DNA from: Sulfobacillus thermosulfidooxidans
GTDB taxonomy: Bacteria; Bacillota; Sulfobacillia; Sulfobacillales; Sulfobacillaceae
DNA length: 64,000 nucleotides
NCBI RefSeq assembly: GCF_001280565.1
Contig: NZ_LGRO01000001.1
Coordinates: 1,302,001-1,366,000 of the forward strand
Direction: 5' to 3'
Below, one piece after another: positions 25,878 through 38,546 of this stretch. The number at the start of each line of letters is the position of its first letter. The first letter of the stretch is position 1. The notes beneath the pieces were generated by a model, which saw only the letters and a list, made by a program, of their open reading frames with translations, did no database searches and was not told the DNA's origin. A program made the position numbers and the translations under genes.

Positions 25878-26768
25878 TTAACTGATATCGATGTTCGCTC
25901 GCCGCGCCAGTTCGTAAATTAAGATGGAGTGATCCTGTTCACCCCAGCCCTGCGCCAACACGCTGTTCATCATATCGTGGACCATAGCGGTCACAGGAAC
26001 CGACACTTCCAGCTGCTGAGCAGCCTCCAGAGCAATGGTTAAATCCTTGCGGTGCAGCCGAATTCGAAACCCGGGTTCGAACCGCCCCTCCAACGCCCGT
26101 TGACCGTGGACGTCCAAGACCCGGCTTTGAGCAAATCCGCCCAACAAGGCTTGGCGCACGCGGGAAGGATCCACACCGGACTTTTTAGCCAAAACCAGCG
26201 CCTCCCCGACCGCCTCAATCGTTAAAGCCACCACAATCTGGTTACACGCTTTGGTGACCTGCCCGGCACCAGCATCTCCGACGTGCACAATATTTTTCCC
26301 CATGGCTTGAAATATCGGTCGCGCCCGTTCGAACGCATCGACACTCCCGCCCACCATAATGGACAATGTCCCCGCTTTGGCCCCGACATCCCCGCCTGAG
26401 ACAGGTGCGTCCAGACTGTCGGCACCGCGTTCCACGGCCGCCTGATGGATTTTGCGGGCAATTGCCGGGCTGACCGTCGACATGTCAATTAGAAGATGGC
26501 CGGGCCGAACGCGGTTAAACACGCCGTCCACCCCAAAATAGACGGATTCTACATCCGGGGTGTCAGGCAACATGGTGATAACAACGTCACTAGCATCGGC
26601 GGTAGCTGCTGGGCTGTCGGCAGCCACCGCGCCTTCGGCTACCAGGGATGTCTCTTTATTACGTGTTCGGTTGTATACCGTGAGCGGAAATCCCGCCCGT
26701 AGCAAATTCATGGCCATTGGGCCGCCCATAATCCCGAGTCCTATAAACCCTATTCGCGTTTCTGCCAT
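25878..26768 (-). CDS. glxR: 2-hydroxy-3-oxopropionate (tartronate semialdehyde) reductase
   Basis: 296 residues of the beta-hydroxyacid dehydrogenase family. The NAD(P)-binding GLGIMGGPMA is at residues about 10-19, the substrate signature DAPVSGGDVGAKAGTLSIM near 120, and the catalytic lysine in GQVTKACNQIV near 170. It should reduce tartronate semialdehyde to D-glycerate. ATG 26768 follows AAGGAGCG by about 5 bases; the upstream extension to 26819 overlaps hyi and is rejected. It is the last gene of gcl-hyi-glxR, with 11 bases to hyi. L-threonate dehydrogenases belong to the same family, so the call rests partly on the operon. Confidence 0.9.
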   Translation of the reverse strand: MAETRIGFIGLGIMGGPMAMNLLRAGFPLTVYNRTRNKETSLVAEGAVAADSPAATADASDVVITMLPDTPDVESVYFGVDGVFNRVRPGHLLIDMSTVSPAIARKIHQAAVERGADSLDAPVSGGDVGAKAGTLSIMVGGSVDAFERARPIFQAMGKNIVHVGDAGAGQVTKACNQIVVALTIEAVGEALVLAKKSGVDPSRVRQALLGGFAQSRVLDVHGQRALEGRFEPGFRIRLHRKDLTIALEAAQQLEVSVPVTAMVHDMMNSVLAQGWGEQDHSILIYELARRANIDIS

Positions 26769-26779
26769 ATTTTCGCTCC

Positions 26780-27574
26780 TTACCCGGCAAATTGTCCGTT
26801 TTGATAAAGCCGCCACCACTCTAGACTGTCCTCGGTGCGTCCTGGTGGAATATACTCCAAGCCGATGTACCCGGTATATCCGGCCTCGTCCAGGGCCGAA
26901 AAAATCCGGCCGTAATTTAACTCACCCGTTCCCGGCTGATGTCGGCCCGGATTGTCGGCAATTTGGACGTGTCCGATATGGTCCCTTAATGTCCGAAACG
27001 TTCCGATAATCTCTCCTTGCGTCCGTTGCAGATGATAGATGTCATATTGAATCTCAACGTTGGGCCGGCCAACCTCCCGAATCAAATCGACCACATCTGA
27101 GGTCCGGTTGAGAAAAAATCCCGGAATATCGTACGGATTGACTGGTTCCAGCATCAGCGTAAGATGGGCTTTGCCGAGCTCGTCCGCAGCATAGCGCACG
27201 TTGTCCCGCAACACCGCCCACGCCTCGTCTTTCGGCAAATCATCCGGCCGGCGGCCCGCTAGACAATTTAATCGTGGCACATCCAGCTCAGTTGCATAAC
27301 GGATGGCCTCCGCCACCCCCTCACGAAATTCCGCACGGCGCTCTGGCAAAATCGCTATGCCCCGTTCCCCATGTTCCCAGTCCCCGGAGGGCAAGTTAAA
27401 CAGCGCAATGGTCAATGCCGCATCTTGCGCAGCTGTTTTAACTGCCTCCAGCCCGTCCGCATAGGGGAACAAAAATTCCACCGCATCAAATCCGGACGCC
27501 CGGGCCCGGCCAAACCGTTCCAAAAACGGAACATCGGTATATAACATTGTTAAATTCGCGGCAAATTTCAGCAT
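26780..27574 (-). CDS. hyi: Hydroxypyruvate isomerase
   Basis: 264 residues with the TIM-barrel fold of the xylose-isomerase-like family: an opening FAANLTMLYTDVPFLERF, NCLAGRRPDD, the acidic metal ligand in LMLEPVNPYDIPGFF, DIYHLQRTQGEI, HVQIADNPGRHQPGTGEL and the last ligand in YIGLEYIP. It interconverts hydroxypyruvate and tartronate semialdehyde. AAGGAGAG precedes the ATG. Gaps of 12 and 11 bases separate it from gcl and glxR, so the three genes form one operon. The related 2-oxo-tetronate isomerase OtnI is in the same family, but the gcl neighbour favours Hyi. Confidence 0.92.
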   Translation of the reverse strand: MLKFAANLTMLYTDVPFLERFGRARASGFDAVEFLFPYADGLEAVKTAAQDAALTIALFNLPSGDWEHGERGIAILPERRAEFREGVAEAIRYATELDVPRLNCLAGRRPDDLPKDEAWAVLRDNVRYAADELGKAHLTLMLEPVNPYDIPGFFLNRTSDVVDLIREVGRPNVEIQYDIYHLQRTQGEIIGTFRTLRDHIGHVQIADNPGRHQPGTGELNYGRIFSALDEAGYTGYIGLEYIPPGRTEDSLEWWRLYQNGQFAG

Positions 27575-27586
27575 ATTGTCCTCTCC

Positions 27587-29335
27587 TTATCCCTGCCGGG
27601 GTCCCGTCAGTTCCGGCTCGCGATCTATGACCGGCCCAAATTCCCGGATCTGATCCAACGCTGGACCCATGGCCGCATCTGCTTCCCGCTGGATAAAGAC
27701 TTCCACCAGCACTGGTAAACGGTTCGCCTCGGCTTCCTGACGTGCCCAATTTAACGCTGGCTCCAGCTCCTGGGGAACTGTTACCCTTCGTCCCATGCCG
27801 CCCATCGCCTCAACTATGGCCACATTATCCATACCCATCCCGTCGTTATGGTCATAACTGATATCCACTCCGTAGTTCATTTGATACTGGTATTTGGACG
27901 GCTGGCGGATTAGTCCCAGATACCCATTGTTAAGCATGACCATCACTAAAGGAATGCGATATTGGACGGCTACAGCAATCTCTTCTACCAAAAACTCAAA
28001 GGAGTAATCACCGACCACGGCGACCACTTCTTGTTGCGGACGCGCCAACTTGACCCCGATGGCAGCCGGAATTTCCCAGCCCAAGGGTCCTGCCTGCCCA
28101 CACACCAGATAGTGACGAGGACGGTAAACGCGTTGAAACTGTCCGGACCAAATTTGGTACAGGCCAATGGCGGTGGTGAATACCGTGTCCGGACCGAAAG
28201 ATGCATTGATTGCTTTAAAGACCCGAGCGGGATGAATCGGTACCGTGTCAATATCCATGACCCGGTCATAGCTATCGCGCAGCACCTGCACACGGTCGAC
28301 CCAGTCACCGGGACTCTTTGGAGAAACCCGACTTTTGGCCTCGGCCAATACTGCCTCCAAGGCCAGCTTGGCATCGCTCACGATTCCGAGCGCTGGCTCG
28401 ATGATGCGACCAATTTGCCCCGGATCTACATCAATTTGAATAAATTGCCGATCCCGGGTGTAGATGGCCAAATCGCCAGTGTGACGCTCGGCAAATCGCG
28501 CGCCGACCGCCAGTACGAGATCAGACTCCAGAAAGACCCGATTGGCCGACCGCGTGTGGGTCTGAATCCCGACCGTGCCGACGGCCAACGGATGATTGGC
28601 AGGCAGTGCCCCCCACGCCATTAAGGTCGGCGACACTGGAATTTGAAGGTATTCGGCCAATTGTCGTAAAAGATCCTCCGCCTCGGCAGTGATAACTCCG
28701 CCTCCGGCCAAAATGAGCGGCCGCCGGGCCTCAAGCAGCAGATCTACCGCCCGGCGTACAGCTGCCGGATTCGGTGGTGTGCGAAAGACCGGCAACGACT
28801 GGTCAACCGACGGGTCATAAAGGATTTCCGCCTTTTGGACGTCGAGTGGCAAATCGATATGCACCGGACCTGGTCGGCCTTCGCGGGCAATTCGGAAAGC
28901 CTCACGAAACACCCAGGGAATTTGGGCTGCCTCCATGACCAAAAAGCTTTTCTTAACCACTGGTTTGACGATATTGACGATATCAACTGCTTGAAACCCC
29001 TCGCGATGTAATTGTGACCGCGGCACCTGGCCAGTAATCGTAATCATGGGTATGGAGTCCGCCCACGCGGTGTATAGTCCGGTCACCATATTGGTTCCCG
29101 CCGGTCCAGAAGTACCGATGGCTACGCCCACTCGTCCTGTGATCCGCGCCCATCCATCGGCCATGTGAGTCGCCCCTTCTTCATGCCGAGCAGTAATCGC
29201 TCGAATACTATCTGACACCTTCGATAATGATTGATAAAGGGGTAATATCGCCGCTCCAGGAATCCCGAAAACGGTCTCAACCCCTTCATCCATTAAAATT
29301 GAGACCACCGCGTCCATTGCCGGCATTTTCAGCAT
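27587..29335 (-). CDS. gcl: Glyoxylate carboligase (tartronate semialdehyde synthase)
   Basis: 582 residues in three ThDP-enzyme domains. It joins two glyoxylate to tartronate semialdehyde and CO2. It follows E. coli Gcl closely, from MLKMPAMDAV and VFGIPGAAILP to TSGPAGTNM and NCGxxGPLGW-like CGQAGPLGWEIPAA. The cofactor loop reads GDYSFEF (about 441-447) to NNGYLG, matching the GDF variant of Gcl rather than the GDG of acetolactate synthase. One oddity: residue 52 is Glu (RHEEGA), where E. coli Gcl has Val51 (RHVEGA). AAAGGTGGG precedes the ATG at 29335. First gene of the glyoxylate operon. Confidence 0.9.
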   Translation of the reverse strand: MLKMPAMDAVVSILMDEGVETVFGIPGAAILPLYQSLSKVSDSIRAITARHEEGATHMADGWARITGRVGVAIGTSGPAGTNMVTGLYTAWADSIPMITITGQVPRSQLHREGFQAVDIVNIVKPVVKKSFLVMEAAQIPWVFREAFRIAREGRPGPVHIDLPLDVQKAEILYDPSVDQSLPVFRTPPNPAAVRRAVDLLLEARRPLILAGGGVITAEAEDLLRQLAEYLQIPVSPTLMAWGALPANHPLAVGTVGIQTHTRSANRVFLESDLVLAVGARFAERHTGDLAIYTRDRQFIQIDVDPGQIGRIIEPALGIVSDAKLALEAVLAEAKSRVSPKSPGDWVDRVQVLRDSYDRVMDIDTVPIHPARVFKAINASFGPDTVFTTAIGLYQIWSGQFQRVYRPRHYLVCGQAGPLGWEIPAAIGVKLARPQQEVVAVVGDYSFEFLVEEIAVAVQYRIPLVMVMLNNGYLGLIRQPSKYQYQMNYGVDISYDHNDGMGMDNVAIVEAMGGMGRRVTVPQELEPALNWARQEAEANRLPVLVEVFIQREADAAMGPALDQIREFGPVIDREPELTGPRQG

Positions 29336-29808: not shown

Positions 29809-30615
29809 TTATTTTTTCCGCAAAGACCCTAATCGTTCGGATACTTGCTGCGCGGCCTTTACAATCTCTGGCCCTACTTCCATCGCTCGTTCCCGTGACA
29901 ACCGGGCGGCTGGCGCTGATATGCCGATAGACGCCACAATATGGTTACGGCTGTCCACAATCGGGGCCGCAACACAGCGAGCCCCGACTTCCTGTTCCTC
30001 GTCATCGACCGCAAAGCCCAGTTGGCGGACCATGACCAATTCGTCCTCCAAGGCAGCCCAGTCAGTAATGGTATGAGCGGTATATGAGGTCAGCTGAGGA
30101 TGTGCTCCCTTCATCCTTTGCACCAATTCCGGTCGATACGCCAACAGAGCTTTCCCCACTGCGGTACAATGAATCGGCGCACGACGACCGATGTTCAGTT
30201 GCATCCGCAAAAGATTGTAAGCATCTACGGTGGCGATATAGACCATATTCATCCCATCTTCCACCGCCAGGTTGACCGCTTCTCCCAGAAATTCTGCTAG
30301 CTGGTCCATCACCGGCTCAGCAGCCCGGTGTAGCGGCCAGGATCGAGTGGCGATTCCACCCATTTCCACCATCCGGATACCCACGCGATAACTGCCTTGT
30401 TCCCCATCCTGCTCTACGTAACCAAGTTCCATTAATGTATGCAACAAGCGGTAAACCGTGCTCTTATGCATACCCACCGCATCGGCCAATTGCCCGAGGG
30501 ACATTTCGTTGTGTAGCACTAGCTTTTCCAATAGTCGAAATGCCCGTTCCACAGACTGCACCCGTACTTGCCCGTCTGATTCGGGAGGGAGTACCCCTAG
30601 TCCCACCGAACTCAC
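29809..30615 (-). CDS. IclR family transcriptional regulator
   Basis: 268 residues. An N-terminal winged helix-turn-helix (LGQLADAVGMHKSTVYRLLH, about residues 40-60) is followed by the IclR effector domain with HCTAVGKALLAY and DDEEQEVGARCVAAPI, the usual ligand-pocket segments. GTG 30615 follows AAGGA by 7 bases. IclR proteins such as AllR and GclR-type regulators respond to glyoxylate or related acids and often control gcl. It lies on the same strand directly upstream of the gcl operon, so I infer it controls gcl-hyi-glxR. Confidence 0.9.
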   Translation of the reverse strand: MSSVGLGVLPPESDGQVRVQSVERAFRLLEKLVLHNEMSLGQLADAVGMHKSTVYRLLHTLMELGYVEQDGEQGSYRVGIRMVEMGGIATRSWPLHRAAEPVMDQLAEFLGEAVNLAVEDGMNMVYIATVDAYNLLRMQLNIGRRAPIHCTAVGKALLAYRPELVQRMKGAHPQLTSYTAHTITDWAALEDELVMVRQLGFAVDDEEQEVGARCVAAPIVDSRNHIVASIGISAPAARLSRERAMEVGPEIVKAAQQVSERLGSLRKK

Positions 30616-32042
30616 CTCTAATTCCTTATGTCTCTATCTCGCTGATTTCATCCATCATACCGTAGCCGCCATCTTTAAAAAAGCAGCTTTGATACGGTCT
30701 TGATGGTTATGAGAGACTTAGGGGCACCTCTTAAGCATGAAACCAGGAAGTTCAGGTCGTTTCTGGTGATATAACCTCGTTACTAAGTTGTACTCACGGT
30801 ATACATCAAGAAGACATCGAACTACGAGGCCACAGCCGTAGGCTATTCAGGTCCAACAAGCCAGACATCAGTCGAAGTAAGCTGCGGTGCTTCATTACGG
30901 GCTCGCCGCCACCGCGTCCCAATTAAGCCCACCAAAACCCAATTTCCACCGGGGCAGCCACACCTTCATCAACAGCAAGAGACGCATGAACGATACCAAA
31001 GGCCCGGTGACGGGTAAGGGAGGACCCGCCCATCGAGAAACCGGAAACAATAATAGAGGCGTTAATCCTAGGTGCTGAACCGAATTTAAGATTTGATGGA
31101 ACACAAATTAATCCCCGGTTTAGAATATTCGGCGAATCTCTAAGCCTGTCTCCTACTCTTTGGGACAATTAACGAAAATTTTTATGCCGACCCCACAACA
31201 TTCATGGGGATTGATGAAATCCATCTCCTGGGAATGATTAAGAGTAGTGCAAGTGCATAATCAGCGTACCATCCCTGAAACATATTGACTAATACCAAAA
31301 CACAAAACAAACTATAAGTTTTCAGAAATATATCCGGTTACCACCATCTCGTGAGAAAAAACTCATTTCCACGATCCATAGCACATCGCTATTGGTGACC
31401 CTCACTGATGGCCAAATACCGAAAAGCAAAGGTCCAGGGCCGCCGACCTCCCTCGTTTGTGTTAAGATTCGAAAACTTTGACCTTCTCCCCTGTCTAGAC
31501 GAAAGCTATCTTTACACGGCAAAAGCATCCCTCCGATGTCGCGGACGCTCCATTTAAGCTAGTTATGTCATCATGGGACGAATGATTATTCTTGGCGATC
31601 CCTTGAGATGAAAAATGGTGACACGTCACTATTTACACAGAACGAATTTGATAACGTTTTTAGCGTTTCGTCATGGACGTCATAGACACGTCTATCCCAG
31701 GCAAACCCTTAGGGCAATTGGGTTACGAGAATGTTCCTTCTGATAGGTTTTGTTCTGTTAGAACCTGTACGTATCATGAAGTTTTTATAATTACTTTTGT
31801 TTTTTGGTATTAGTCGACGGACTCCCTTGATGCTATCCTCAAATTGCAATCCTCGGGGAACCAGTATGACGCAACTATTGGTTAAAGGTGAAATTCAATG
31901 GCCAACAGATTATCTAAGTCTGGCAGGATGGAAATACCAAACTCAAGAGGCACATCTGCCGGCATTTATTCATCGCCTATCTCCTATCGATCACGGCAAA
32001 AACATCTTGACGATTTGAACTTGGTAAAGGAGGTTCTGGCCG
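30616..32042. other. About 1.4 kb with no supportable gene
   Basis: Several short overlapping frames exist (30887-31078 plus, 30923-31168 minus, 31322-31528 minus, 31797-32018 plus). None has a clear start signal and domain. The A/T-rich part near 31780-32042 ends in a very good ribosome site (AAAGGAGG at 32026-32033) for the next small gene. The rest looks like eroded DNA between two metabolic blocks. Confidence 0.45.
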
Positions 32043-32390
32043 TTGTCACGTTTATTTGATTCGATACCAGCATCTGCTCAGTCCACATTTGTCAAAGAAA
32101 AATTAGGAGCCTTATTGGAAGAGAGAACCTATAGTCGCGAGTTGCTTTGGACCTTGAAAGTCTACCTAGACAGCAATGGTCAGGCAGGAGAAGCAGCCAA
32201 ACGTCTTTATGTTCATCGAAACACCCTAGCGTACCGGTTAGCCCGATTGCAAGAACTGCTGGGATGCGATCTCAAGAATTTGGACACCGTCACAGATTTA
32301 CGATTGGCCCTAACCTTTTATTATAACGGAATCCAAGAGAACGGAGGAAAAGATGATGTCAAAATCGAGAAGACCACCCATATTTCTTAA
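32043..32390 (+). CDS. PucR-type helix-turn-helix protein, only the C-terminal domain
   Basis: 115 residues that match only the C-terminal effector-HTH of PucR/CdaR regulators: ELLWTLKVYLDSNGQAGEAA, KRLYVHRNTLAYRL and ARLQELLGCDL. Full PucR proteins have 400-550 residues with N-terminal sensory domains; those are absent. TTG 32043 follows AAAGGAGG at an ideal 9 bases, so it may be expressed as a short protein. It could be a remnant of a regulator of the purine/glycolate type, or a trimmed functional DNA-binding protein. Its end overlaps the start of the next gene by 38 bases. Confidence 0.6.
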   Translation: MSRLFDSIPASAQSTFVKEKLGALLEERTYSRELLWTLKVYLDSNGQAGEAAKRLYVHRNTLAYRLARLQELLGCDLKNLDTVTDLRLALTFYYNGIQENGGKDDVKIEKTTHIS

Positions 32391-32574
32391 ATCATCCCCG
32401 AGAATCTGGGAAGAATGTACACAATGTTTCGGTTATGGTGAAGACATTTGTCAGGACTGTGAAGGCGAAGGATGTGTACACTGTGAGCACCGAGGCTACA
32501 GCGTCTGCCGAATTTGTCACGGCATGGGTGAAGTGCATATAGACGACATTACATGGATTGCCGTACAATCCTAG
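32353..32574 (+). CDS. Small zinc-finger protein with four CxxCxGxG-like repeats
   Basis: 73 residues, start ATG 32353 (or 32356) behind GGAGGAAAAG. Eight cysteines form four pairs at 22/25, 33/36, 41/44 and 52/55. Three pairs read CxxCxGxG (CTQCFGYG, CQDCEGEG, CRICHGMG) and the fourth CVHCEHRG. This is the layout of the DnaJ cysteine-rich domain, which binds two zinc ions, but here it stands alone without J or substrate domains. A small chaperone adaptor or metal-binding protein is possible. The 38-base overlap with the HTH gene suggests coupled translation. Confidence 0.65.
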   Translation: MMSKSRRPPIFLKSSPRIWEECTQCFGYGEDICQDCEGEGCVHCEHRGYSVCRICHGMGEVHIDDITWIAVQS

Positions 32575-33564
32575 CAAAAATATCGCCATAACCAAAAAAT
32601 CTCCTAAGTGGAGCATTATATATGCTTTAAGCCGCCAAATGGATAAGCCATGGCATTATCACCTTTGAAGAATTCTTTCACCTTTCGACCTCAATTTTTT
32701 CCGGTAGGTCTATCATCTTACCTAACTATTCCTCTAAATCGCCAGATGCTTTTAGCATGGGAATTATGGCTGATGATTTGATAGTCAAAGATGCGCACCG
32801 AGATCGCGGGGAATCAACTCAGCACAATACAGAGTCACCCTGGCATAAAACGTTGTGATGCATCGACATCACCCACCCAAGAACACATCTGCCGTTTAAA
32901 TCCGCCACAACCTCAGAATCCCTGCAGTCAAAGAGTTGATGCGAGATTAGAAAAACCAACACAATATTTGTTCATCCCTCATATAGTCGATGTGACCTCT
33001 GGGATGTCATAAGCTGATAGCGACTCGCACATGATCCGATACTTCTGCCGCGTCCAGGGTACGATCATCCCCGAGGCTATGTCGCTGGTGAATTACCAAC
33101 CAGGCTTTTTGTGCTTGATGTTCGCGGGCAGGCCGCAGTTGGGGCGTACGTGAGAAATGGCTGCATCTTCTCTTCCCCGATTTAACTAACGGGTAGGCAG
33201 CGCTCGATGTGAATTCTCGCCCAGTCTCATGCCTTAAGCACACGCTCTTCCGTCATTTGATGATCCCGTTTACCGGACGATTAGTCGGCGAAACGCGTCT
33301 AGAAGACTGATGAATAAATCCGCCATGGCCATCATGTTCTCCTTATGCAAACCATTGAAGGCGACTTCAAATGTTCTGTCTCCCAGTCAGCTAGCGAAAA
33401 GCCGTGGTCTCATGCGTCGCTTCGGTGATTTTTCAGTAGCATAGAGAGGCATGCATCAAAATTAGGAACATTCGCACCCCATGGTAAGTTTAGTAAAATT
33501 TTTGATATCATTTTTCATATGTGTATTTTCTCACTAATGATACATAGTAAAGCGAGGCCAAATT
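32575..33564. other. About 990 bp without a supportable gene
   Basis: Only short frames occur (32791-33012 plus, 33007-33243 minus), without start signals or domains. The last ~100 bases are A/T-rich and should carry the glcDE promoter; they include the palindrome TGATATCA near 33505-33512. No terminator was found after the zinc-finger gene. Confidence 0.45.
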
Positions 33565-36075
33565 ATGCTGATATCCTTACCGAGTTCTTCCTGTCAACAA
33601 ATCCCGGATCAAGGTTCTGGACCAGATGCTCAGCAAAAGGAAGAATTTCTTTGCGCGCTCACCCAGCGTTTCGGTGAGCGTATCATCCGCGATGCCAGTC
33701 GCCTTTTAGCTTATAGTTATGATGCAACGTCGCAACGGCATAGGCCTGATGCAGCCTTTATTGCCGAGAACGAAGAAGAATTGCAATATGTGCTGCAAAC
33801 GGCCAGCCATTATCACATGCCGGTTATTGCCCGGGGATCAGGAAGCAACATCAGTGGCGGCACGTTGCCCATCTCAGGAGGCATCGTCGTATCTTTAACG
33901 CATTTTAAAGAGATTAAATCTATTGACCTTCGAAGACGGCGAACGCACGTGGAACCTGGCGTTGTCAATGCCAGGTTACAAGAGGCATTAGAACCTTATG
34001 GCTTCTTCTTTCCTCCCGATCCCGCCAGTCACCGCATATCAACACTGGGAGGCAATGTTTCCGAGGGATCAGGAGGTCCCCACTGCGTCAAATATGGTAC
34101 AACTAGCCACTATGTTACAGGAATTAAAGCTTTGCTTGCCGACGGAACACCCATCACTTGTCAAGAAAGTTTGTCGATTATAGATTGGCCTGGCTTGTTA
34201 ACAGGCTCGGAGGGCATTTTGGCTATCATTACCGAAATAACGTTGCGAATATTGCCCAAAGCTCCTAACTCCGGAACACTACTTGCGGGATTTCGGTCTG
34301 TGATTGACGCCGTCTCGGCAGTGTCTGGGATTATTCAGGCACAAATGATTCCCTCTACCCTAGAGTTATTAGACAAAGCCACCTTAGATACCGTCAGACC
34401 GTTCATGGACGCAGGATATCCGGATTCAGATGCTGTGCTCCTTATTGAAGTCGATGGTTCGCCCTTATCCGTTCAAGCGCAAATTCAACGGCTCGTTGAA
34501 GTATTACAAAAATATCATGCCGATCCCGTGATCATTGCCGAAAACCCCGAACATGCTCATCAATTGATGGCAGCTAGACGATCGGCTTATGGAGCTGCCG
34601 CACGACTTGCATCCCATGTCTGGACGCAGGATGTGACCGTTCCCCGGCCCCTTTTAGCAGATATGATGAGTCATGTGCTGGCCATATCTCGCCGTTTCTC
34701 GCTGGTAATTAACACCGTGGCACATGCTGGCGATGGTAATTTGCATCCCTTGATTCCGTATCATCCGGATGATGCCGAGGAAGTGGCACGAATGAGGCAG
34801 GCCGATCACGCAATTTTGCAAAAAGCAGCGGAATTAGGCGGATCCATTACGGGAGAGCATGGCATTGGCATTGACAAACTGCATGAATTACCTCTTATGT
34901 ATTCGGCCGACGAATTAGCCGCCATGTACGCCTTCAAAGTGGCCTTTGATCCCCATAATATCTTAAATCCCGGTAAGGCCGTTTATCCTGTTGAGGACAT
35001 GTCTTATATTCCTGATATTGGCCCAGGGCCAGCAATCACGGGGCATGTTCAACCCCGCACAGTCGATGAACTGCGAGATACCATACGCGAAGCCTACATC
35101 CAAAAGGTTTGCCTTACCCTGGACAAGCATAGGGTGCATAAAGGCGCTTGCCGTGTAGATCTGAGTCATCTTCAAGATATCCTGGATTTTGATCCGGACA
35201 ACATGACCATCACAGTGCAATCCGGGATGTCTTATGCAACCCTACAATCCCTTTTGGACAAATATCATCTGATGTTTCCGGTAATTCCTCTACAAAAAGA
35301 CCAAACTCTTGGCAGTTTAGTTGCCGAAGGATTGCCCCATCTGGCGCATTTGGGCTATGGTCCCGTGAAAAACTGGATTCTTGGCCTATCTGTTGTCGAC
35401 GGAACCGGTCGGCAGTTACAATTCGGCCGTAAGATTATGAAAAATGTCGCAGGATTGGATATGCCAAAACTATTTATTGGCTCCTTGGGCCAATTTGGTT
35501 TGATTACCACCGTGATCTTGCGTTTACTTCCCAAATTTTCCGAACAGGTTGTTTATATCATAGATCATCAGAACATGAGTCCAGAGCAATACGAAGCCTT
35601 GATTCGTGCTCTCCTAACAAGGGCTCCAGGACCCCAGGGTCTATGGACCATGGAACATCATCTTGCTATCTATGTGGATGGACATGATTTTCCCAGCCAA
35701 CACCAATATATCGAACAGGTATGCGATCATATTCGTATTCCTTATGAGCGTCATGATGCCTCAGATGTTCTCGCCCAAACACACTCAACACTGCAAACAC
35801 TCTTTGATCATGCCCGGCGCGACCATTCAGGATATGTATTTGGAGTGGGACCATTACCCCATTCTATTACCCCTGCATTTCACGCCCTCGATGACAGTTT
35901 ATGGATTATGCCAAAAGAACCCGAAAATGCCCCCCAACGGCTGCAGCTTCACGGCTGCCGCGTGTTGAATCACAAAGGTTGGCAAGTTATCAACCTTCCT
36001 GATCCATCCTTGATTGAGATCACCCAGCGCCTTAAACAATATTTCGATCCCCACAACATATTTGGAAAGCCATAA
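33565..36075 (+). CDS. GlcD-GlcE fusion, glycolate oxidase-type FAD protein
   Basis: 836 residues in two FAD units. Residues about 20-470 match GlcD: the PCMH FAD fold (ARGSGSNISGGTLPISGG), the C-terminal HAGDGNLHP (about 386), GEHGIGIDK (about 430) and FDPHNILNPGK. Residues about 485-836 match GlcE, a second PCMH-type domain with VKNWILGLSVVDGTG and KIMKNVAGLDMPKLFIGSLG (about 625-645), ending FDPHNIFGKP. In most bacteria these are separate subunits that work with the iron-sulfur GlcF to oxidise glycolate to glyoxylate. No glcF follows. The product would feed the gcl operon. D-lactate or another 2-hydroxy acid is an alternative substrate. Confidence 0.85.
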   Translation: MLISLPSSSCQQIPDQGSGPDAQQKEEFLCALTQRFGERIIRDASRLLAYSYDATSQRHRPDAAFIAENEEELQYVLQTASHYHMPVIARGSGSNISGGTLPISGGIVVSLTHFKEIKSIDLRRRRTHVEPGVVNARLQEALEPYGFFFPPDPASHRISTLGGNVSEGSGGPHCVKYGTTSHYVTGIKALLADGTPITCQESLSIIDWPGLLTGSEGILAIITEITLRILPKAPNSGTLLAGFRSVIDAVSAVSGIIQAQMIPSTLELLDKATLDTVRPFMDAGYPDSDAVLLIEVDGSPLSVQAQIQRLVEVLQKYHADPVIIAENPEHAHQLMAARRSAYGAAARLASHVWTQDVTVPRPLLADMMSHVLAISRRFSLVINTVAHAGDGNLHPLIPYHPDDAEEVARMRQADHAILQKAAELGGSITGEHGIGIDKLHELPLMYSADELAAMYAFKVAFDPHNILNPGKAVYPVEDMSYIPDIGPGPAITGHVQPRTVDELRDTIREAYIQKVCLTLDKHRVHKGACRVDLSHLQDILDFDPDNMTITVQSGMSYATLQSLLDKYHLMFPVIPLQKDQTLGSLVAEGLPHLAHLGYGPVKNWILGLSVVDGTGRQLQFGRKIMKNVAGLDMPKLFIGSLGQFGLITTVILRLLPKFSEQVVYIIDHQNMSPEQYEALIRALLTRAPGPQGLWTMEHHLAIYVDGHDFPSQHQYIEQVCDHIRIPYERHDASDVLAQTHSTLQTLFDHARRDHSGYVFGVGPLPHSITPAFHALDDSLWIMPKEPENAPQRLQLHGCRVLNHKGWQVINLPDPSLIEITQRLKQYFDPHNIFGKP

Positions 36076-36366: not shown

Positions 36367-37566
36367 ATGCTAATCATTGCAGACGATTTAAGTGGAGCAT
36401 TAGATACCGGTGTCATTTTTTCGGGGTTGACTCCGACAAAGGTTGTTCTTAAATTACCTAAACATCTTTTCGACGGGCCCTCCGTCCTCGCCTGGACAAC
36501 CGAATCGCGTCATCTCCCTGCTGATGAAGCCCGGCGCAATCTGCAACAGGTCCTCCCCTATCCCCTTAAGATCCGGCCTCTATACAAAAAAGTGGATGCA
36601 ACGCTCCGTGGACCCGTCGGAGCTGAAATCGAAACCTTGTTGCATCTGACGGGGATGAAAACCGCCGTGCTCTGTCCATCATTTCCCACGGTCAACAAAA
36701 TTGTAAAAGACGGACATCTTTATGTGGATGGGAAACCGTTGGAAACCACAGCACTGGGTACGGATCCGCGAAATCCGTTGCGCACCGGCGACATTCAGGC
36801 TCTCTTGCGAGAAACCACTACACTCAGGGCGGAATACGTTTCCTTAAACACATTACGCCATCACCCTGAACATGTGCATCAGAGCATCACTCGTCACTCG
36901 ACTGGGCAAATTGTTGTGGTCGATGCAGAAACCGATGACGACTTAGCACAGATTGCGAAGATTTTATCGAAACATCCGAACGTTTTACCGTGTGGTTCGT
37001 TGGCTCTTGCCCTACAATTGCGCCCCTATCTTGTTCAATCTCAGACTTTAACCGTGCCAGTAACAGCCAAGGCCGATAAGGCGCTCATAATGAGTGCCAG
37101 CTTGCATCCTGCAACTCAACAACAAATTAACTATTTTCGGACCCGTTTCCCGGACCACTTTTGGGAGATAGACAGTACCTTACTTTCACACCATACGCCG
37201 GAACTGATTAACACCGTAACACTTAGGCTTATCGATTGGTTTTCGACCTCACATTTTGCCCTGCTCTCCGTCAGTCCGGAGCCCCGCATTGATCCCAATG
37301 CCGTAACCGCATTTCTTGGACAGCTTGCTCAGCGACTTATCAATGACATGAAGGGGGTGTTTGCGCTGGCCGCAACGGGAGGAGATATGACATCTGCATT
37401 GTGCCGTGCTTTAGGAATAACCGAATTGGAGCCCGTGATGCAATGGGAACCCGGCATTGTGCAAAGCCGAATGCTTTTTCGTAAGAGCCCATGGACATTG
37501 GTGTCCAAATCCGGCAGTTATGGTTCTGCCCCATTTTTTATCGACTTTGTTCGGCGCTTGCTATAG
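36367..37566 (+). CDS. Four-carbon acid sugar kinase family (DUF1537)
   Basis: 399 residues with the OtnK/DtnK layout. The N-terminal substrate domain opens with IIADDLSGALDTGVIF and has KKVDATLRGPVGAEIE; the C-terminal nucleotide-binding domain has FALAATGGDMTSALCRALG. Known members phosphorylate D-erythronate, L-threonate or 2-oxo-tetronates at the 4-hydroxyl. The partner aldolase/decarboxylase and isomerase of the tetronate routes do not adjoin; instead it sits between the GlcDE fusion and a DapA-type aldolase. It may phosphorylate a C4 or C3 acid (glycerate is conceivable) made from this pathway. The substrate is not readable from sequence. Confidence 0.82.
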   Translation: MLIIADDLSGALDTGVIFSGLTPTKVVLKLPKHLFDGPSVLAWTTESRHLPADEARRNLQQVLPYPLKIRPLYKKVDATLRGPVGAEIETLLHLTGMKTAVLCPSFPTVNKIVKDGHLYVDGKPLETTALGTDPRNPLRTGDIQALLRETTTLRAEYVSLNTLRHHPEHVHQSITRHSTGQIVVVDAETDDDLAQIAKILSKHPNVLPCGSLALALQLRPYLVQSQTLTVPVTAKADKALIMSASLHPATQQQINYFRTRFPDHFWEIDSTLLSHHTPELINTVTLRLIDWFSTSHFALLSVSPEPRIDPNAVTAFLGQLAQRLINDMKGVFALAATGGDMTSALCRALGITELEPVMQWEPGIVQSRMLFRKSPWTLVSKSGSYGSAPFFIDFVRRLL

Positions 37567-37649
37567 CATACTGATAAGAAAACACAGCGCAAGATGTCAC
37601 AACACGCAATTATTCATCGTAAGTATCGTCATCGATAAAGGAGAGCAGC

Positions 37650-38546
37650 ATGTCAGCATATCTATTGCAAACAGCCATGATTACCCCATTAACAAGCGAT
37701 GGCCATCTCGATACTCTGGCCCTCAAACGATTAATTCAGCGCATTTTGGCAGCTCAACACATTGGTCTATCCATTTTAGGTTCGACCGGAGAAGGCGCAA
37801 GTCTTTCCCTGTCCTTAAGACGGCAAGTGCGGGAAGCCGTTTTGGAACGTGTAAACGGCCAACAACCGGTATATTCCGGTATAGTGGGAACCGTTCAAGA
37901 GGATATCGTCAAGGACTTGGATGCATGCCGCGACCTGCCATTAGCAGGGCTTTTGATTCCCCCGCCCTCTTATTATCCGATGACTGCGAGAGATCTCGAG
38001 GTCTTTTATTTGTCTTTAGCTGATCGGTCTCCCTTTCCCATCATGCTCTATAATATTCCCCCCTACACGAAAATCAGCATTCCGGTAGAGGTCGTTGCCA
38101 AATTATCCACCCATCCTCATATTATGGGTATTAAGGACAGTAGTCGTGATTTCGACTACTTCCTGAGGGTTTTGCACCGTACTCGCGATATACCCGACTT
38201 TAAAGTATTAATCGGGACGGAAACACTCGTCCTTCCCGCCTTAGCCGTGGGAGGACATGGCGCCGTAGTCGGGTCAGGCAATATTGTGCCCCAATGGATC
38301 GTGGAACTCGCGGAGCATGTGGCCCATAACCGCTGGCCAGAGGCACGCCAGTTAGAATACCAACTCATCGATTTAGCAACGGCCCTGCGCCAAACCGATG
38401 GGGTCCGAGGTTTTAAATTTGCCACTGCCGCCATTGATCACCATCTGGGTTATTTAATGGCGCCTTATCAACCGCTACCCCAAGATGCTCCCGCTGCTCT
38501 GGCCATTCGCGATGTTCTTAAGCGGTATCACCTGATTTCGGAGTGA
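37650..38546 (+). CDS. DapA-family aldolase/synthase (class I, 2-oxoacid type)
   Basis: 298 residues of the dihydrodipicolinate synthase/N-acetylneuraminate lyase family. The dinucleotide-like GSTGEG loop is at 44-49, Tyr134 lies in LYNIPPYT, and the Schiff-base Lys162 in GIKDSS. GSGNIVPQW is in the usual late position. AAAGGAGAG precedes the ATG. The family spans DapA, 2-keto-3-deoxy-gluconate aldolase and 4-hydroxy-2-oxoglutarate aldolase, all using pyruvate as one partner. The kinase and GlcDE neighbours favour a catabolic aldolase over lysine synthesis. It is closed by a perfect terminator. Confidence 0.85.
   Translation: MSAYLLQTAMITPLTSDGHLDTLALKRLIQRILAAQHIGLSILGSTGEGASLSLSLRRQVREAVLERVNGQQPVYSGIVGTVQEDIVKDLDACRDLPLAGLLIPPPSYYPMTARDLEVFYLSLADRSPFPIMLYNIPPYTKISIPVEVVAKLSTHPHIMGIKDSSRDFDYFLRVLHRTRDIPDFKVLIGTETLVLPALAVGGHGAVVGSGNIVPQWIVELAEHVAHNRWPEARQLEYQLIDLATALRQTDGVRGFKFATAAIDHHLGYLMAPYQPLPQDAPAALAIRDVLKRYHLISE

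Follow-up and report, generated by a model that had tools for sequence, protein, structure and literature searches.

The glyoxylate carboligase (Gcl) of Escherichia coli is the standard exception to the conserved catalytic glutamate of ThDP enzymes, since it carries Val51 at this position. In the DNA analyzed here, a stretch of 64,000 nucleotides from Sulfobacillus thermosulfidooxidans (contig NZ_LGRO01000001.1, in the following called the window), a gcl-like gene encodes a glutamate instead. The question is whether this gene belongs to a Gcl that never lost the glutamate, to a Gcl that regained it, or to an enzyme related in function to acetolactate synthase (ALS). Based on our analysis we would rather assume the first, namely a true glyoxylate carboligase of an early-branching lineage that retained the ThDP-activating glutamate, and assign to this reading a probability of roughly 0.85. 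It is based on the alignment, the tree, the single origin of Val51, the changes co-occurring with it, the operon context and the presence of a separate ALS. The relevant features of the window are:

27587–29335, minus strand: gcl, predicted Glu-type glyoxylate carboligase of 582 aa (matches to NF008431 and to PDB entries)
29180–29182, minus strand: codon of Glu52, GAA (column of E. coli Val51)
29090–29092, minus strand: codon of Asn82 (Asp82 in every surveyed Val-type Gcl)
28001–28003, minus strand: codon of Ser445 within GDYSFEF (Asp448 in every surveyed Val-type Gcl)
26780–27574, minus strand: hyi, hydroxypyruvate isomerase, 12 bp after gcl (TIGR03234, 354.7 bits, cut-off 353.45)
25878–26819, minus strand: glxR, tartronate semialdehyde reductase (TIGR01505, 367.9 bits, cut-off 340.75)
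29809–30615, minus strand: regulator of the IclR family, located upstream of gcl (best NCBIfam match BhcR, under its cut-off)
33565–36075, plus strand: GlcD-GlcE fusion (glycolate oxidase subunits) of 836 aa (TIGR00387, 477.8 bits, residues 68–471; NF008439, residues 528–666; both below their cut-offs)

The gcl ORF was intact, with the start codon ATG and the stop codon TAA. The deduced protein scored above the cut-off of NF008431 (810.6 bits, cut-off 791) and below that of TIGR01504 (644.2 bits, cut-off 711.2), the latter probably leaving out a part of the Glu type. The top PDB matches were the E. coli Gcl structures 8i05 and 2pan with E values of ~1e-172, whereas acetolactate synthases matched far more weakly (~1e-94 and worse). 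The Gcl of Sulfobacillus benefaciens was found among the nearest matches (82% identity). Additionally, one genome of the same genus carried two gcl-hyi-glxR operons (L258 and L259), the Gcl proteins of which were 82% and 73% identical to that of the window.

Residues 50–55 of the protein read RHEEGA. When the protein was aligned to E. coli Gcl (2PAN) with phmmer and with MAFFT, Glu52 fell on the Val51 column, as the preliminary description of this DNA had claimed, with a single nearby gap about 10 residues upstream. The same description had named the cofactor loop GDYSFEF and an operon with hyi and glxR as marks of Gcl, and both were confirmed: the loop reads GDFDFQF in E. coli and GDYDFQF in most other Val-type Gcl, and hyi and glxR follow directly after gcl and exceed their family cut-offs. 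A sequencing or base-calling error at Glu52 was ruled out by the nearest orthologues, which encode it by GAG instead of GAA, and by the strong purifying selection on gcl (dN 0.037 and dS 0.61 compared to a 93% identical orthologue).

The E. coli Gcl (P0AEP7, PDB 2PAN and 8I05) shared 47% identity with the window Gcl over the full length. Common to both were Phe114, Gln115, Arg284, Ile393, Leu421, Leu478 and Ile479 (E. coli numbering) as well as the gene order gcl-hyi-glxR. Among these residues F114 and R284 (PMC5298238) as well as Q115 and I479 (PMC13327070) are active-site positions of the E. coli enzyme. The two proteins differed in Glu52/Val51, Asn82/Asp82, Ser445/Asp448, Glu283/Asn283, Trp396/Ala399 and Tyr482/Arg484 (window/E. 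coli) and by small insertions and deletions around residues 338–342 and 497–504. Judged from positions 283 and 484, differences on the acceptor side are possible.

The biosynthetic ALS large subunit (TIGR00118) also belongs to the ThDP decarboxylase family and shares with the window Gcl the catalytic Glu, Asn82 and the loop Ser (ALS loop GDGS). However, the identity was only ~35–37%, the ALS genes are located in a leu/ilv context, and around the cofactor the window protein has kept the Gcl letters Ile393, Leu421, Leu478 and Ile479 where ALS has Val/Met/Met/Val. With TIGR00118 the window protein reached 512.4 bits and stayed under the cut-off of 538.35, while the host's own ALS reached 676.6 bits and was found between leuB and ilvE in a leuA-leuB-ALS-ilvE cluster. 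For TIGR00119 the host genome contained only a sub-threshold match, located ~4 kb from this ALS gene. No ALS small subunit was detected near the Glu-type loci by tblastn with E. coli IlvN/IlvH, queries that were also blank beside the ALS-like controls. An ALS misannotated as Gcl was ruled out by the family scores, the diagnostic sites, the operon and the separate ALS.

To place the protein among its relatives, sequences were gathered from plasmid records, from a genome-contig scan, from the genus and phylum of the window and from phylum samples around five other genomes. The contig scan retained the sequences most similar to the query and therefore over-represents the Glu type; the phylum samples give a fairer picture, but their centre genomes were non-random. 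In the Val51 column only two states were found, Glu in 117 Gcl-like sequences and 7 of deep Bacillota, and Val in 85, comprising all E. coli-type Gcl. The 117 sequences include some cases of the same gene under different locus ids, and with identical proteins removed 88 Glu, 7 deep Bacillota and 83 Val sequences remained. The loop was of the type GDYS, GDYG or GDFG in the 117 Glu sequences and GDGG in the 7 deep Bacillota. Glu was present in all Gcl-like matches read from Chloroflexota (10/10) and Desulfobacterota (5/5), whereas the Actinomycetota loci read were divided into 18 with Glu and 12 with Val. In the Pseudomonadota sample all 30 fetched loci had Val, with the exception of the centre genome Alsobacter, which had been picked for having Glu. 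Both types coexisted in 5 of 38 Glu-type genomes, namely Nonomuraea cypriaca, three Pseudonocardia and Actinophytocola oryzae.

In Actinomycetota (Nonomuraea and Pseudonocardia, for example) and Chloroflexota the Glu-type Gcl were mostly 57–64% identical to the window Gcl. Like the latter they carry the motif RHEEG[AG], with the loop GDY[SG]FQ[FY], and mostly lie in hyi/glxR operons, though mostly in the order hyi-glxR-gcl as opposed to gcl-hyi-glxR in Sulfobacillus.

A maximum-likelihood tree (78 rows, 582 columns, LG+C20+F+G4, trait columns removed, ALS as outgroup) united the Val-type sequences in one crown clade (support 100/100) nested inside Glu-bearing Gcl. Counted from the root, deep Bacillota, Desulfobacterota, one Chloroflexota group, the locus L057 and Sulfobacillus branched off, followed by the remaining Chloroflexota and Actinomycetota, the actinobacterial L190, and finally Alsobacter (L086), L100 and L103, which all have Glu and are the sister of the Val clade. 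The window protein thus fell inside the Gcl clade (100/100) and diverged after the Bacillota, the Desulfobacterota and one branch of Chloroflexota; how the later Actinomycetota and Chloroflexota groups follow one another was only moderately supported. A faster tree with five extra rows, long-branched ones included, was in agreement. Forcing all Glu types into one clade cost 94 log-likelihood units and was rejected (AU test, p=0.0006). The stem of the Val clade is long (0.40), but long-branch attraction would draw this clade to the ALS outgroup, so that its nested position is not the artefact to be expected. As the Val clade is nested and a single change explains the Val51 column, Glu is ancestral and retained, and Val51 is derived and has arisen once.

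These results bear on several earlier statements. That this branch has kept the ancestral glutamate, one of two options in the preliminary description, agrees with our data, since the ALS outgroup and each branch that splits off before the Val clade carry Glu without exception, and one Glu-to-Val change suffices. The rarity of Glu implied there was wrong, as many Gcl genes in Actinomycetota, Chloroflexota and Desulfobacterota are of the Glu type. A wide occurrence of RHEEG in Gcl proteins had been counted there against the proposal; it proved to be real in our survey, and as the motif is so widespread it is no oddity of one species, which strengthens the ancestral reading. Furthermore, a family-wide analysis described Val at this position as characteristic for Gcl throughout the family, from which a different mechanism would follow (PMC3534367). 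With wider sampling this statement does not hold. Val marks the crown clade only and therefore cannot serve to define Gcl in general, and a motif built on Val51 misses many Gcl genes. Read strictly, the published statement would make the window protein merely 'Gcl-like', while its putative membership in Gcl is based on descent and context. Our search of the open literature gave nothing on V51E, V51D or Glu-bearing Gcl and no characterized enzyme of the Glu branch.

Other explanations were weighed against the retained glutamate. A reversion, in which the ancestor had Val51 and the Sulfobacillus branch regained Glu, would be a small step at the DNA level, because Glu and Val codons can differ by one base (GAA/GTA, GAG/GTG). 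Nevertheless we consider it hardly credible: ALS and all successive outgroups have Glu, one change is enough, the tree and the AU test reject it, and Asn82 and Ser/Gly448 would have to be restored as well, in all deep branches. The mixed activity put forward as the other option in the preliminary description would mean a bifunctional or mixed carboligase, with acetolactate as a further product or with pyruvate serving as donor or acceptor. Of the 46 sites that distinguish ALS from Val-type Gcl, 12 indeed carry the ALS letter in the window protein, among them Glu52, Asn82 and Trp396, and 9 a letter of its own; moreover, the added Val-type Gcl in the five genomes mentioned suggests separate roles there. 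Yet 25 sites, the cofactor-lining ones among them, have the Gcl letter, the gene lies in a hyi-glxR operon and an ALS is encoded elsewhere in the genome. Such a mixed activity is thus not supported by the sequence and appears unlikely.

Alternatively, the enzyme could form a related 2-hydroxy-3-oxoacid from another 2-oxoacid, with hyi and glxR acting on that product. Position 283, which is Asn in all surveyed Val types and Asp or Glu in most Glu types, and the difference at 484 would be compatible with this. We regard it as very improbable, however, because the neighbours score above the cut-offs for hydroxypyruvate isomerase and tartronate semialdehyde reductase and the glycolate oxidase fusion is found ~4 kb away.

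Returning to the retained glutamate, its loss in the crown clade was accompanied by further changes. Asn82 to Asp and Ser/Gly448 to Asp, the latter in the cofactor loop, each occurred once and on the same stem as Val51. Positions 82 and 448 together separated 83 distinct Val-type sequences from 88 distinct Glu-type, 7 deep Bacillota and 20 ALS sequences with no exception in the surveyed alignment, and the ALS letter at both is common to Glu types. Among the other replacements on or near the Val stem were Thr424, Leu404, Trp412 and Ser396. Asn283 and Arg484, on the other hand, predate Val51, as the Alsobacter group already has both alongside Glu51. Since the stem is long, the co-occurrence of the three changes is no proof of coupling, and any functional coupling of these positions is our interpretation.

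Restoring the glutamate in E. coli Gcl reportedly helps the first step and slows later ones, as Kaplun et al. are said to have found in 2008. This trade-off may depend on context, for E. coli offers a background of Asp82 and Asp448, whereas Glu occurs naturally together with Asn82 and Ser/Gly448. A more far-reaching proposal, which we hold only tentatively and at somewhat less than even odds, is that most Gcl lineages would carry out glyoxylate carboligation at full rate by the canonical Glu mechanism. Val51 would then be part of a one-time rewiring (Glu51Val, Asn82Asp, Ser/Gly448Asp) and dispensable to the chemistry, and the V51E penalty would come from the Asp82/Asp448 background. The natural 'V51E' background of the window Gcl and the Glu sister lineages (Alsobacter, L100 and L103) offer a before-and-after series for the question of why Gcl lost its glutamate, with 82 and 448 as two candidate compensating sites.

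The genomic context was compared across relatives. Within 6 kb, hyi and/or glxR were present at 45 of 50 Glu-type and 30 of 30 Val-type genes and at none of 18 ALS-like loci, the flanks of which were shorter than those of the Gcl loci. In the eight Glu-type loci examined from the deepest Chloroflexota and Desulfobacterota branches, some of them on short contigs, neither gene was found (0/8), which leaves it uncertain whether the root of the Glu group already had Gcl function. For the Sulfobacillus node and everything above it, the context supports this function well. Deep Glu-type homologues outside hyi/glxR operons were L249–L252 and L262 (Chloroflexota, Desulfobacterota). Two of these had unrelated neighbours, resembling an arylsulfatase and sugar ABC permeases at L250 and an acyl-CoA dehydrogenase at L252.

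From these comparisons we infer the reaction and the pathway. Glycolate, derived from phosphoglycolate or from the environment, would be oxidized to glyoxylate, the GlcD-GlcE fusion being the likely source. Gcl would convert two glyoxylate to tartronate semialdehyde and CO2, and Hyi and GlxR would take this product on to glycerate. As in acetolactate synthase and judging from the family, Glu52 would form the canonical hydrogen bond to the aminopyrimidine N1' and accelerate ionization at C2. In E. coli Gcl the Val51 state goes back to a single event on the crown-clade stem, where Asn82Asp and Ser/Gly448Asp also arose. The host genome encodes Rubisco, which makes phosphoglycolate salvage plausible.

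The glycolate cluster of S. thermosulfidooxidans with gcl, hyi, glxR, glcD and glcE is already drawn in a figure of PMC5418355; the operon itself is thus not new. As a metabolic operon it is ordinary; what makes it informative is the enzyme Gcl. The true start of glxR is probably nearer to 26768, because the family match starts at residue 22. Separate glcE and glcD genes were not seen just after glxR in the window, unlike in the same-genus locus L257. Matches to the IclR-family regulator flanked gcl in 7 of 50 Glu-type loci. Between this regulator and the GlcD-GlcE fusion, nearly 3 kb (30616–33564) contained no long ORF other than one of 115 aa (32043–32390, plus strand) with only the C-terminal PucR helix-turn-helix domain (PF13556), possibly what is left of a complete PucR regulator that once served the glycolate cluster. 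After the fusion, a DUF1537/OtnK-type kinase (SBD_N, NBD_C) and a DapA-family aldolase were found at 36367–38546 (plus strand); speculatively, this kinase could replace glycerate kinase.
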